Part shown: in pieces, positions 7,259 to 28,507 of the stretch
How positions within the stretch are numbered: the first letter of the stretch is position 1
How the letters are laid out: the number at the start of each line of letters is the position of its first letter
Assembly (NCBI GenBank): GCA_018897155.1
Contig: JAHILE010000044.1
Location: forward strand, 1 to 28,507
Direction: 5' to 3'
DNA from: Nanoarchaeota archaeon
Lineage (GTDB): Archaea; EX4484-52; LFW-46
Length of the DNA: 28,507 nt
Program-made: the position numbers and the translations under genes
Notes under the pieces: generated by a model
The model's input: the letters and a program-made list of their open reading frames with translations, nothing else
What the model was told of the DNA's origin: nothing
The model's database searches: none

Positions 7259-8524
7259 ATGCAGGCAATAATTCTTGCGGCAGGCGTTTCGTCGCGCTTT
7301 TGGCCTCTAAGCGAAGGAAAGCATAAGTCGCTTGTTAGTGTTTTGGGCAAATCCCTGCTTTTAGGTACAATCGAAAGCATTGCTTCTGCCGGAGTCAAAG
7401 ACATTATAATAGTGCAAGGCCCTTCCGCACGTCTTGAAAAATCACTGGCTGCGCCATCTGGCGTTTCTCTGAAATTTGTTTATCAGCCGGAAGCATGCGG
7501 TATGGGGGATGCGATTTTACGGGCAAAAGAGCACATTTCAGGAAATTTTCTGGTTATAAGCCCATATCACATAAACGCCGGCGATATTATTAAAAAAATT
7601 CTTGAAATCCACAAAAAATCAAAAGCAGAAATAGTTCTTGTGGGGAAAAAGACAGACACTCCTGAAATCTACGGAATTTTTAAAATAGCTGGCGGAAAAG
7701 CGGCAGGAATTGTAGAAAAGCCGAAGATTAAAGATGCGCCTTCAAATATTCGCGCGGTTGGAGTATATCTTTTGCCGAGGCAATTTTTAGCGCAACTCCA
7801 AGTTGAGAAAAGCGCGCATTATTCCTTTGAATCCGCACTTGAAAAAGAGCTGAAATCAAATCCTTCGGAGCTCATAATAACCGAATATTTTCAGCCGACG
7901 TTGAAATATCCATGGGATGTTTTTGCGATAGAGAAATATGCAATGGATTCATTTTTCAAAAATCAAAAGCCATTCATTTCAGAGGCCGCATATGTTGACA
8001 AAACCGCAAAAATCGAAGGCCGGGTTTATATCGGTGCAGGCACAAAAGTCATGGAAAACGCGGTGATAAAAGGCCCGTGCTTTATCGGCGAGAATTGCGT
8101 GATTGGAAATAACGCTCTTTTGAGAGATTATGTTGATGTCGGAAACAACGCAAAAATCGGCGCGAATACAGAGATTGCGCGCGCAATAATCGGCGAAGGA
8201 ACGCACATTCATTCAGGTTATATTGGCGATTCAATAATTGCAGAGGACTGCCGCATAGGCGCTGGATTCATCACTTCAAATGCAAGAATTGACCGCGGTG
8301 AAATTTTCACAATCGTCAAAGGAGAAAAAACAGCAACTAGCATGAAATCTTTTGGCGCAGTTGTCGGGCGCAGCACAAAACTGGGGATTGGCGTAAAAAC
8401 AATGCCGGGCATTCTGATTGGCGCGAATTGCATTATCGGGCCTGGAACAGTTGTGAGCGAAAACGTCGAATCGGATACGACATATTATTCAGAGTTCAAA
8501 GGGATTATGAAGAAGAAAAAGTAG
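7259..8524 (+). CDS. GlmU-like sugar-1-phosphate nucleotidylyltransferase with left-handed beta-helix
   Basis: The 421-aa protein has an N-terminal nucleotidyltransferase domain (about 1-225) opening MQAIILAAGVSSRFWPLSEG, and a C-terminal hexapeptide-repeat beta-helix (about 238-405: AKIEGRVYIGAGTKV, GPCFIGENCVIGNN, GTHIHSGYIGDS, ILIGANCIIGPGTVV). This is the architecture of archaeal bifunctional enzymes making UDP-GlcNAc-type sugar nucleotides. The strand that normally ends in a metal-binding Gly-Asp reads LVISPYHINAGD, so the usual Asp is absent or shifted. Whether it is an active uridylyltransferase, an acetyltransferase, or both cannot be settled here. It is divergent from uppS, consistent with a glycan pathway. 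Confidence 0.85.
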   Translation: MQAIILAAGVSSRFWPLSEGKHKSLVSVLGKSLLLGTIESIASAGVKDIIIVQGPSARLEKSLAAPSGVSLKFVYQPEACGMGDAILRAKEHISGNFLVISPYHINAGDIIKKILEIHKKSKAEIVLVGKKTDTPEIYGIFKIAGGKAAGIVEKPKIKDAPSNIRAVGVYLLPRQFLAQLQVEKSAHYSFESALEKELKSNPSELIITEYFQPTLKYPWDVFAIEKYAMDSFFKNQKPFISEAAYVDKTAKIEGRVYIGAGTKVMENAVIKGPCFIGENCVIGNNALLRDYVDVGNNAKIGANTEIARAIIGEGTHIHSGYIGDSIIAEDCRIGAGFITSNARIDRGEIFTIVKGEKTATSMKSFGAVVGRSTKLGIGVKTMPGILIGANCIIGPGTVVSENVESDTTYYSEFKGIMKKKK

Positions 8525-25586: not shown

Positions 25587-25693
25587 GGGTGAGCAGCAGC
25601 GAACCTTAAAGCTCCATGTTATATCCCCTGAGCGAAGCGAGTGTAAACAGAGGGGGAGTTCCCGCCGACGGATGACGCAAAAACGTACGTAAC

Positions 25694-25701
25694 TTTATAT
25701 A
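25694..25701 (+). promoter_or_regulatory. TATA box of the surface-protein locus
   Basis: TTTATATA predicts a transcription start near 25724, eleven bases before the ATG at 25735 and well before the (AG)9 tract. Confidence 0.5.
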
Positions 25702-25734: not shown

Positions 25735-25857
25735 ATGAATCATAAAACCTCCTTGCATAATAACGGTTTCAAGCCTTTGAAGCCGCTTACGCGCTTCAAA
25801 ATGCGCACTACTTCTTTAACGGACACGAAGAGAGAGAGAGAGAGAGCAATAATTTAA
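25735..25857 (+). CDS. 40-codon N-terminal frame interrupted by the AG repeat
   Basis: This frame starts MNHKTSLHNNGFKPLKPL, contains a second ATG at 25801 (MRTTSLTDTK), passes through the AG repeat as alternating Arg-Glu, and stops at 25855-25857. If the repeat were one unit shorter, it would run straight on as ...ESNNLKRSFALIGLSLVLL into the signal peptide of the large surface protein. I read it as the true beginning of that protein in an out-of-frame state. ATG 25801 may be the better start, because the first third overlaps an IS-end-like sequence. Confidence 0.5.
   Translation: MNHKTSLHNNGFKPLKPLTRFKMRTTSLTDTKRERERAII
25747..25763 (+). repeat. copy of an insertion-sequence end
   Basis: ACCTCCTTGCATAATAA matches 28374-28392 (ACCTCTTGCATAATTATAA) in the same orientation, with one base dropped and two added. 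It may be the remnant of an earlier insertion. Confidence 0.4.
25829..25846 (+). repeat. (AG)9 dinucleotide repeat
   Basis: Nine perfect AG units, the longest simple repeat noticed in the window. It lies exactly where the upstream start codons and the signal-peptide frame are out of register by one unit. Confidence 0.9.
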
Positions 25858-25871
25858 AGCGTTCTTTTGCA

Positions 25872-28373
25872 TTGATTGGACTTTCGCTTGTTCTTCTTAT
25901 GTTTGCATATTTTGTTTCCGCGGCAACCATTACAGTAAACCAACCGCCAACAATTACGGCAAACCGCACGCCGCTTCTGAACGTCACCTTCAACGAAACA
26001 GTTAACCAAACATGGTTCTCAATAGACAACGGAACAAACACAACCGCGTGCTACAACTGCACAAACTTCACAACGATTCTGAACAATGAATTTCCGACAA
26101 ACACAACAGGACTTGTCGGGTGGTGGAAGTTTAACCGAAATTCAGGTGAAAACGATACTCTTGCAATCGACTGGTCGGGCAACGGAAACAACGGCACAAT
26201 CAACAACACCAATCCGGGAATAGACAACTGCACAGGAAACTGCTCGGGATGGACAACAAACGGAAAGTTCGGGAATGCCATACGATTTGACGGGGTAAAT
26301 GATTATGTTCAAACGCCAAGCTTTGCGTTATCAAGCACAGACAATACTACAACGTTTGAATTTTGGTCAAAAGGGATCAACCAAACAGGTCATCAAACAT
26401 TTATATCTCATGGTGAATATATAGACGGAACTATAAGGATTCACAGACCATCTAATGGAAATAATTTGGCTTTTGAGTATTCTAATGGTACTACTTCATA
26501 TAAAGTAGTATCAACCACGAATTATTTTCAAGGATTTAATAGTTCTTGGTTATTTACTACTATTTCTGTGGACTATAATAATCGAATTGTAACATTCTAT
26601 AGGAACGGTGTTTTATTCTCAAATAGCAGTGTTTCAGAACCGATGATTTTTCCAGCTACAAACAGAGTAAAATACATTGGATCGCATAATCCAATATTAT
26701 ATTTCTTCAACGGTTCCATCGACGAAGTCCGCATATACAACCGTTCTTTGTCAGCAACAGAAGTCTACAACGATTATGCATTATCTTCAGGTCAACATAA
26801 CATAACCATATCTGCAAACGATAGTTCTGGGAATATCAACACAACTCTAAAGCAATTCACAATAGACAGCGCTGCTCCAGTCATAAACTTTACAAATCCA
26901 ACCCCTAACAATGAAATATTAAATCAGAACTGGGCATTCATAAACGCAACTTCTGACGAAACTCTAATCGGAGTTGTTCTCGAATGGGATGGAATAAACG
27001 AAACAATGCAAGGTTCTGGAATCAACTTTTATAAAAACAAAACGTGGCTTTCTGGCAACTATACATTCAAAGTTTACGGAACAGATACTTTGGGCAATAT
27101 AAATGTTTCGGAAACAAGGTGGGTTTATGCCAACTCCACCATTTCACCAGTCACAATTTCAACATCAGACGGTCTTAATATCACCGTTGCTCCAAATGGG
27201 ACGCTGTCAGGAATCAAAATAAATGATTCAGAATTGTTTTCTTCTGGCATTCTAAACGGCTTTTATCTCAAGGACTATGCAACTGGAAGCCCATTTATCC
27301 AGATGAAAGGAGAAATAACTAATTCTACAAGCAACTCGGTAAAAACACAAACCTCTTATGGAGACATTCAGTTTAATGCGACGTATACTGCTTATTCTAA
27401 TTATATCCAAATAGATGGTGATCTAAAGGATGAATCAGACACAGATAGGGCAATACAAATAGCTTTTGATTTACCTATAAATGCTACGGGATGGAATTGG
27501 TGGGATTACATACTTCAAAATAGAACCATAAACGATGCAACCACATATTCATATACCTTCGATTATGGTGTTGCAAGCCCAAGAACACAATCATATTATC
27601 CATTTTCCACAATATTGAATAATACTATGGGGATCACGATTTCAGTTCCAATGGATTCACCAAGAGTGTATAGATTAAGTTATAATACAAGCACGGGATT
27701 TAGGATAGAGTACGACATAGGATTATCGAATCAAACAAATAAGATTGGCGCAAGCAAGGCAAATTTCACATTCATCATTTACACGCTAGATGAGCCGGAA
27801 TGGGGATTCAGAAGCACCGTAAAAAAATACTATGAACTCAACCCGCAATATTTTATCAAAAGAGCAGTTCATGAAGGATTATGGATGGTTCTTACTTCAA
27901 CTGTGAAAGATATATCCAATCCAGATGACTTTGGTTTCGGATATGATGAGGAAAGCGGAAAGAATGCAAATGATTTCAATTACGACCATGGCATATATTC
28001 ACTTATGTACACCGAGCCATGGGGACTATGGCTTGGAAATTCATCATGGACCGCTACAAAGCCAAGCTATGATGAACGAATTAGCTTATTGAATAACAAA
28101 ACAAACGATACAGCAACTTGGAAATTCGGAATTACCTACAGTTATGCCGCAAATGCAGCAAAGAATTCTCTAATCACCAATGATACCGAGAAATGCCCTC
28201 TTGACTGGATAAACTATTTTTATAATGTTTGGAGTGGAGTATACATGCAGAATTTTGTGATCAATCCAGATCCTGAATTGCCGATTTTACCTAACAGGTA
28301 TAACCTAAGTATGCAAGAATATCAATATGGAATATACGGCGGAAGCATAGATAACTGGACCTATGAATATTAG
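25872..28373 (+). CDS. LamG-containing surface protein, out of frame at its start and cut at its end
   Basis: The body encodes 833 residues after a possible TTG at 25872; its own frame has no ATG, GTG or TTG between the stop at 25761 and that codon. A signal segment (LIGLSLVLLMFAYFVSAAT) precedes a LamG/concanavalin-like domain (about 80-302: GLVGWWKFN to GSIDEVRIYNRSL), an Ig-like domain (about 303-422), and a C-terminal region (425-833) that resembles an uncharacterised glycoside hydrolase-like family (WGFRSTVKKYYELNPQYF, GLWMVLTSTV, GIYGGSIDNW). Dozens of N-x-S/T sites indicate heavy glycosylation. The stop TAG is formed where an IS end begins, so the natural C-terminus is probably lost. 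Codon use is mosaic. Confidence 0.8.
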   Translation: MIGLSLVLLMFAYFVSAATITVNQPPTITANRTPLLNVTFNETVNQTWFSIDNGTNTTACYNCTNFTTILNNEFPTNTTGLVGWWKFNRNSGENDTLAIDWSGNGNNGTINNTNPGIDNCTGNCSGWTTNGKFGNAIRFDGVNDYVQTPSFALSSTDNTTTFEFWSKGINQTGHQTFISHGEYIDGTIRIHRPSNGNNLAFEYSNGTTSYKVVSTTNYFQGFNSSWLFTTISVDYNNRIVTFYRNGVLFSNSSVSEPMIFPATNRVKYIGSHNPILYFFNGSIDEVRIYNRSLSATEVYNDYALSSGQHNITISANDSSGNINTTLKQFTIDSAAPVINFTNPTPNNEILNQNWAFINATSDETLIGVVLEWDGINETMQGSGINFYKNKTWLSGNYTFKVYGTDTLGNINVSETRWVYANSTISPVTISTSDGLNITVAPNGTLSGIKINDSELFSSGILNGFYLKDYATGSPFIQMKGEITNSTSNSVKTQTSYGDIQFNATYTAYSNYIQIDGDLKDESDTDRAIQIAFDLPINATGWNWWDYILQNRTINDATTYSYTFDYGVASPRTQSYYPFSTILNNTMGITISVPMDSPRVYRLSYNTSTGFRIEYDIGLSNQTNKIGASKANFTFIIYTLDEPEWGFRSTVKKYYELNPQYFIKRAVHEGLWMVLTSTVKDISNPDDFGFGYDEESGKNANDFNYDHGIYSLMYTEPWGLWLGNSSWTATKPSYDERISLLNNKTNDTATWKFGITYSYAANAAKNSLITNDTEKCPLDWINYFYNVWSGVYMQNFVINPDPELPILPNRYNLSMQEYQYGIYGGSIDNWTYEY

Positions 28374-28394
28374 ACCTCTTGCATAATTATAAGG
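28372..28394 (-). mobile_element. terminal end of an IS5-like insertion sequence
   Basis: The sequence AGACCTCTTGCATAATTAT begins exactly at the break in the surface gene and resembles the GAGACCTTTGCA-type inverted repeats of IS5-related elements. A transposase tail pointing toward it follows at 28427. The other end lies outside the window, so no target duplication can be checked. Confidence 0.55.
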
Positions 28395-28409
28395 GCGTCA
28401 GCCCTTATA
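28388..28409. terminator. hairpin between IS end and transposase stop
   Basis: TATAAGGGC/GCCCTTATA, nine perfect pairs with loop GTCA. It lies 18 bases after the transposase stop codon and could end its transcript or block read-in from outside. Confidence 0.45.
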
Positions 28410-28426
28410 TCTTTTAATTCCTGATG

Positions 28427-28507
28427 TTAACCGACAAACTCGTTCAAGTCAAACCCTTGGTTCATCATTGCCCTGAAATTCACCAATCCATAAACAATAG
28501 AACTCGC
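28427..28507 (-). CDS. C-terminus of a transposase, cut by window edge
   Basis: The minus strand gives 26 codons to the stop at 28427, reading SSIVYGLVNFRAMMNQGFDL then NEFVG. This resembles the helical C-terminus of archaeal IS5-family DDE transposases. The last catalytic residue is outside the window. Its position next to an IS-like end supports the call. Confidence 0.5.
   Translation of the reverse strand, partial: ASSIVYGLVNFRAMMNQGFDLNEFVG

Follow-up and report, generated by a model that had tools for sequence, protein, structure and literature searches.

A candidate phase-variable surface-protein gene with a frame-setting AG tract in an archaeon of the phylum EX4484-52

A predicted surface-protein gene in a Nanoarchaeota archaeon carries a perfect run of nine AG dinucleotides between its start codon and its signal peptide, and the number of AG units determines whether the two are joined in one reading frame. 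We think it likely that phase variation by slipped-strand mispairing is the role of this tract and of the related AG tracts that we describe here. The stretch analysed, which we call the window, is the entire contig C44 (28,507 nucleotides) of a source genome of 1.43 Mb in 62 contigs.

An AG tract between a start codon and a signal peptide

The ATG at position 25735 and a second ATG at 25801 share one frame. The original prediction held that this frame, preceded by a TATA box, runs through (AG)9 into a stop, and re-translation agrees: both starts terminate RERERAII-stop, 9 bases past the tract. The signal peptide is in a different frame (RERESNNLKRSFALIGLSLVLLMFAYFVSAA), which contains two stops near 25760. 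From those stops up to TTG 25872 it contains no ATG, GTG or TTG, and the claim that this frame lacks a start codon before 25872 was borne out when the sequence was checked. Removal of one AG unit had been expected to open a single frame, and (AG)8 does yield a continuous protein of 878 residues. When C44 was re-translated with 5 to 13 units, a single long product was obtained at 5, 8 and 11 units only. These frame relations and the anatomy of the sequence (Table 1) are direct observations.

Table 1. Features of the window around the AG tract
Feature	Position	Strand	Remarks
Promoter/leader block: TATA box and upstream TCCCGCCGACGGATG (25660-25674)		+	Common to the sister-species gene
TATA box TTTATATA	~25694-25701	+	~35-40 bases 5' of ATG 25735
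Short 5' coding sequence leading from ATG 25735 (with ATG 25801 in the same frame) into the tract	25735-25828	+	
(AG)9 tract, proposed slippage switch	25829-25846	+	ON at n = 5, 8, 11; OFF at the assembled n = 9
n-region and signal peptide SNNLKRSFALIGLSLVLLMFAYFVSA	25845-25922	+	Single hydrophobic segment, peak mean hydropathy 2.33
CAATAATTTAA motif 3' of the tract	25847-25857	+	AGC AAT AAT TTA in the signal-peptide frame; CAA TAA / ATT TAA in the other two
Asn-rich ectodomain, LamG (PF13385) then Ig-like	25923-28370	+	C-terminal part without detectable homologue
End of insertion sequence, junction TAG/ACCTCTTGCATAAT	28371-28507	-	Transposase C-terminus; breaks the contig

A chance origin of the C44 tract is excluded. 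Under a first-order Markov model with the dinucleotide make-up of the window, ~0.0024 runs of (AG)≥7 are expected in 1.43 Mb, and a pattern search of the complete genome found 3, of 8, 9 and 10 units. For (AG)≥9 the same model gives an expectation of 6e-6 per genome. In ~104 kb that was sampled, AG runs reached a maximum of 4 units and then jumped to 9 and 10. The C44 tract is perfect, far longer than chance allows, built from a non-triplet unit and located in 5' coding sequence, as in contingency loci based on simple sequence repeats (SSRs). AG tracts are absent from the starts of the surface paralogues on C18, C47, C40 and C24 of the same genome, so that such a tract is no general feature of its surface genes.

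Searches of Pfam, NCBIfam and PDB sequences gave the C44 protein a LamG match (PF13385, 6.6e-21) and weak Ig-like matches. The protein also has 48 N-glycosylation sequons, compared to 20 ± 4 in shuffles. The proposed hydrolase-like domain, for which the same searches detected no match, was dropped. The N-glycosylation, localisation and function of these proteins are all predicted from sequence. The C-terminal 414 residues have no relative among the 34 genomes of the phylum and no convincing one among PDB sequences. AlphaFold run without an alignment gave an unusable model (pLDDT 31).

The open reading frame ends at 28373, where its stop (28371-28373) marks the edge of an insertion sequence (IS), a point that the original prediction missed. 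An identical 94-134-base end of this IS occurs on C3, C5, C7 and C11, always after TAG. The stop is not a natural C-terminus; the 3' end of the C44 gene is truncated, without the anchor present in its homologue in the sister species LFW-46. Within the IS end (window positions 28374-28507), the hairpin AAGGGCGTCAGCCCTT adjoins the terminus, and copies of this end break contigs C44, C11, C7, C5 and C3. The C44 copy may already be impaired by the IS, and its own product unanchored or dead. We nevertheless lean towards the view that this copy still yields a working surface protein when ON. The switch itself is independent of the C44 copy.

A minus-strand gene on C31 of the same genome (G000) is related to the N-terminus of the window gene (70% identity over 51 residues) but is broken. 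A C9 run (L012:1741-1749 on G000:C31) lies in the promoter region of this broken relative, beside a TATA-like sequence, and could be a promoter-spacing tract.

Recurrence of the tract in the genome, genus and phylum

Contig C36 of the source genome carries, within positions 420-455, (AG)10CAATAAT (25 bases identical to C44) directly 5' of the signal peptide SNNKLLLISFSVILISVFAYFASPAFA, and TATATAGCCGTC occurs both there and at the promoter/leader block of C44. The lead-in of the C36 gene consists of two overlapping ATGs (ATGCATGG), one of which would be ON at 9 units and the other at 8; the assembled 10 suits neither. The signal-peptide frame has a stop just 5' of the tract and no ATG, GTG or TTG up to the mature protein, and so at 10 units the exported protein could not be made from a usual start. 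The third frame is closed seven codons further on. Judged by its neighbours, a probable tyrosyl-tRNA synthetase gene and the gene preceding it, the C36 gene is the positional counterpart of the LFW-46 gene.

LFW-46 was assigned by its authors to p__EX4484-52, a host-dependent DPANN lineage that is sister to Nanohaloarchaeota (PMC8561730). Our genus-level comparison consists of two genomes, the source genome and LFW-46. The sole (AG)≥7 run of the LFW-46 genome, on a 19,003-bp contig (CABMCT010000040.1, G001:C40, within 7340-7375), is (AG)8CAATAATTTGAAG, placed right before the closest homologue of the window protein. Here the tract is in frame: the reading ATG-METTVSKLWGTLNPKMETQRERESNNLKSS is open for 1277 codons, and the homologue is therefore ON at (AG)8, the length at which an ON state had been predicted. 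For an earlier second ATG, in a different frame, 9 units would give the ON state. The LFW-46 protein combines LamG, Ig-like and NEW3 domains with a hydrophobic anchor at its C-terminus. The promoter/leader regions of C44 and LFW-46 give a local alignment score of 47, compared to 31 for the best of 500 shuffles. After its tract LFW-46 has TTTGA, also an off-frame stop, where C44 has TAA; the off-frame stop has thus been kept with a different codon. The tract occupies the same position in the gene with differing numbers of units, 9 in C44, 10 in C36 and 8 in LFW-46. Both C36 and LFW-46 place (AG)nCAATAAT exactly between start codon and signal peptide, which supports the contingency-locus layout that had been proposed for C44. 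This placement is not random, and its recurrence across genomes is likewise observed.

The third AG run of the source genome, an (AG)8 on C24 within 28575-28605, is in frame within a class I methyltransferase gene (PF08241). Its neighbours have, by inspection, the look of nucleotide-sugar and glycosyltransferase genes. Gain or loss of a single unit would disrupt the methyltransferase gene, and the same device probably operates on this member of a glycan cluster. By prediction, then, all three AG runs of the genome touch surface functions.

Across the phylum, (AG)≥8 is present in only 4 of the 34 genomes. G017 belongs to a different family. One of its NMT1-like solute-binding lipoproteins has an out-of-frame (AG)9 immediately behind the lipobox. 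The tandem paralogue carries (AG)6 at this position; that tract is out of frame as well and, by inspection, would be in frame at 7. Both mature lipoprotein frames are intact. The two genes have near-identical signal peptides, and their tracts (L084:312-323 and L084:1501-1518 on G017:C31) are in the same off phase. AG runs in G020 and G021 were rejected as signal-peptide switches because they lie in untranslated or intergenic DNA. At the retained loci, a change in unit number moves the reading frame 3' of the tract between ON and OFF, with ON at 5, 8 or 11 (C44), 8 or 9 (C36), 8 (LFW-46) and 7 or 10 (G017). Among the secretion-linked copies as assembled, those of C44, C36 and both G017 genes are OFF, and only that of LFW-46 (G001) is ON; decay could be an alternative cause of the OFF state of most of them.

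A scan for (AG)6CAATAAT over 84,980 species genomes led to one Bacillota metagenome-assembled genome (MAG), 'uncultured Clostridium' CAOJKP, in which at least 13 loci have the arrangement leader-(AG)n-CAATAATTTAR. These loci (L043-L080; e.g., L053:107-162 and L064:2944-2977) have an ATG leader, (AG)9-28 and CAATAATTTA(A/G), in several cases followed by a prepilin-like helix. They apparently form a large multi-locus family of AG-tract phase-variable genes, and where the state can be tested they are mostly OFF in the assembly. Like the archaeal loci, they have the RERE-SNNL reading, stops in both off frames and then a membrane or pilin-like helix; unlike them, they encode unrelated proteins, belong to a bacterium and have longer tracts. 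The likeness in motif probably reflects convergence on prompt off-frame termination. Termite-gut Deltaproteobacteria MAGs (L046, L050, L057, L063, L079, L081) contain, on many contigs, (AG)11-40 followed by CAATAATCRTGCCA. We treat this (AG)nCAATAATCRTGCC arrangement as unrelated, most copies having no long open frame after it.

Proposed phase variation and alternative explanations

We suggest the following sequence of events at C44. Transcription would begin just 3' of the TATA box, and ribosomes would initiate at the first leader ATG. As the DNA is replicated, slipped-strand mispairing would add or remove AG units. One phase in three, here n = 8, would join the leader in frame with the signal peptide, and a glycosylated surface protein with LamG and Ig domains would be exported. 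In either of the remaining phases CAATAATTTAA would stop translation within a few codons, and the assembled n = 9 would be OFF. MutS_V had no match in the source genome, compared to matches in 11 of 14 control genomes, with mismatch repair judged by MutS_V alone; slippage in such a genome would give heritable, reversible ON and OFF states. We infer slippage in vivo, mixed populations, surface location and a benefit in the form of virus escape or altered contact with host cells. The surface-related features of the switched genes (signal peptides, LamG and Ig domains, lipobox, sequons and glycan cluster) are predictions.

Among the alternatives, the one that survives best, although we consider it improbable, is that the C44 gene is a decaying pseudogene, its frame shifted by chance in the repeat and its 3' end disrupted by the IS, with a tract that has no role in switching. 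The gene is indeed out of frame in the assembly, its stop was created by the IS junction, and a broken relative of the same N-terminus is found on C31. However, more than 830 codons 3' of the tract are free of stops, and a chance frameshift is unlikely to have hit one of the genome's three AG runs. In addition, the tract and motif recur at C36 and are in frame in LFW-46, and a like tract is found on two intact lipoprotein genes of G017.

It is less probable still that an error of sequencing or assembly produced the (AG)9 and that the real tract is fixed at (AG)8. An 18-base repeat lies well inside one short read, and although LFW-46 is in frame at (AG)8, the 10 units of C36, in place of 8 or 9, and the tracts of both G017 genes would have to be errors too. 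Even if the error were real, the tract would stay prone to slippage.

We give slightly less weight again to recoding, in which RNA polymerase or the ribosome would slip on the AG tract and make a constant, low amount of in-frame product without a heritable switch. Recoding would fit the several out-of-frame copies that are intact 3' of the tract and a required shift of one AG unit, but that shift varies (one unit fewer at C44 and C36, one more in G017), LFW-46 is in frame already, and perfect repeats of varying length are the expected product of replication slippage. Most doubtful of all is an alternative start, e.g., at TTG 25872, with the tract in an untranslated leader: that TTG does exist, and another surface gene of the same genome seems to begin at TTG or GTG, but such a start loses the basic n-region of the signal peptide (NNLKR), the LFW-46 tract lies inside a frame opened by ATG, and in C36 no ATG, GTG or TTG occurs in the signal-peptide frame from the upstream stop to the end of the signal peptide, so that a start at TTG 25872 cannot hold as a general explanation.

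If phase variation is the correct reading, the tracts at C44, at C36, at the LFW-46 homologue, at the G017 lipoproteins and probably at C24 would together amount to a small system by which a DPANN archaeon switches its surface at several loci. We tentatively favor a broader proposal for EX4484-52, in which AG tracts would independently switch LamG/Ig glycoproteins, lipoproteins and a glycan methyltransferase, so that each cell would display a random surface, as with the phasomes of host-adapted bacteria.

Relation to known phase-variable systems

To our knowledge, phase variation driven by repeats has been investigated almost exclusively in bacteria. Length-variable mononucleotide runs have reportedly been described in older work on Pyrobaculum aerophilum. 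Other archaea are the presumed hosts of DPANN archaea, and randomly switched surface proteins would therefore suggest an arms race against hosts or viruses. The tracts are short, and existing short-read metagenomes are thus sufficient for testing length variation.

A 2025 review of contingency loci leaves the spread of repeat-driven phase variation into archaea as a future question and counts archaea among lineages that await a survey (PMC11868660); SSRs are surveyed in PMC2651432. We found no report of an SSR phase-variation locus in archaea in the searchable literature, which covers few subscription papers, and several such loci in an archaeal phylum appear to be unreported there. Homopolymeric tracts are enriched at the 5' ends of prokaryotic genes, including those of 18 archaea (PMC2831843). 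Like the tracts described here, they are slippage-prone runs near gene starts with a proposed role in gene inactivation; unlike them, they represent a statistical enrichment of poly-A/T, and the available parts of that study neither define an archaeal switch locus nor treat dinucleotide tracts. A Gracilibacterium has a hypervariable surface gene with PTD repeats (PMC6851277). Like the C44 tract, which lies in a predicted surface-protein gene, this repeat belongs to a surface protein, and the organism that carries it is likewise reduced and probably host-dependent. In contrast to C44, the organism is bacterial, and the 9-base repeats are in frame inside the protein with no on/off switching of frame.

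Simple-sequence contingency loci with a repeat in the 5' coding region include the lic genes of Haemophilus influenzae and the opa genes of Neisseria. The candidate loci described here differ from these in their archaeal host, their TATA promoter, their dinucleotide AG unit and the fixed CAATAATTTRA motif that closes both off frames. As in the lic and opa loci, a short, non-triplet tandem repeat lies in the 5' coding part of a surface gene, here a predicted one, and its unit number sets the frame. Similarly, C36 and LFW-46 resemble the lic genes in having alternative ATGs in different frames. The mechanism is that of the classic bacterial contingency locus, and nothing about it is mechanistically new.
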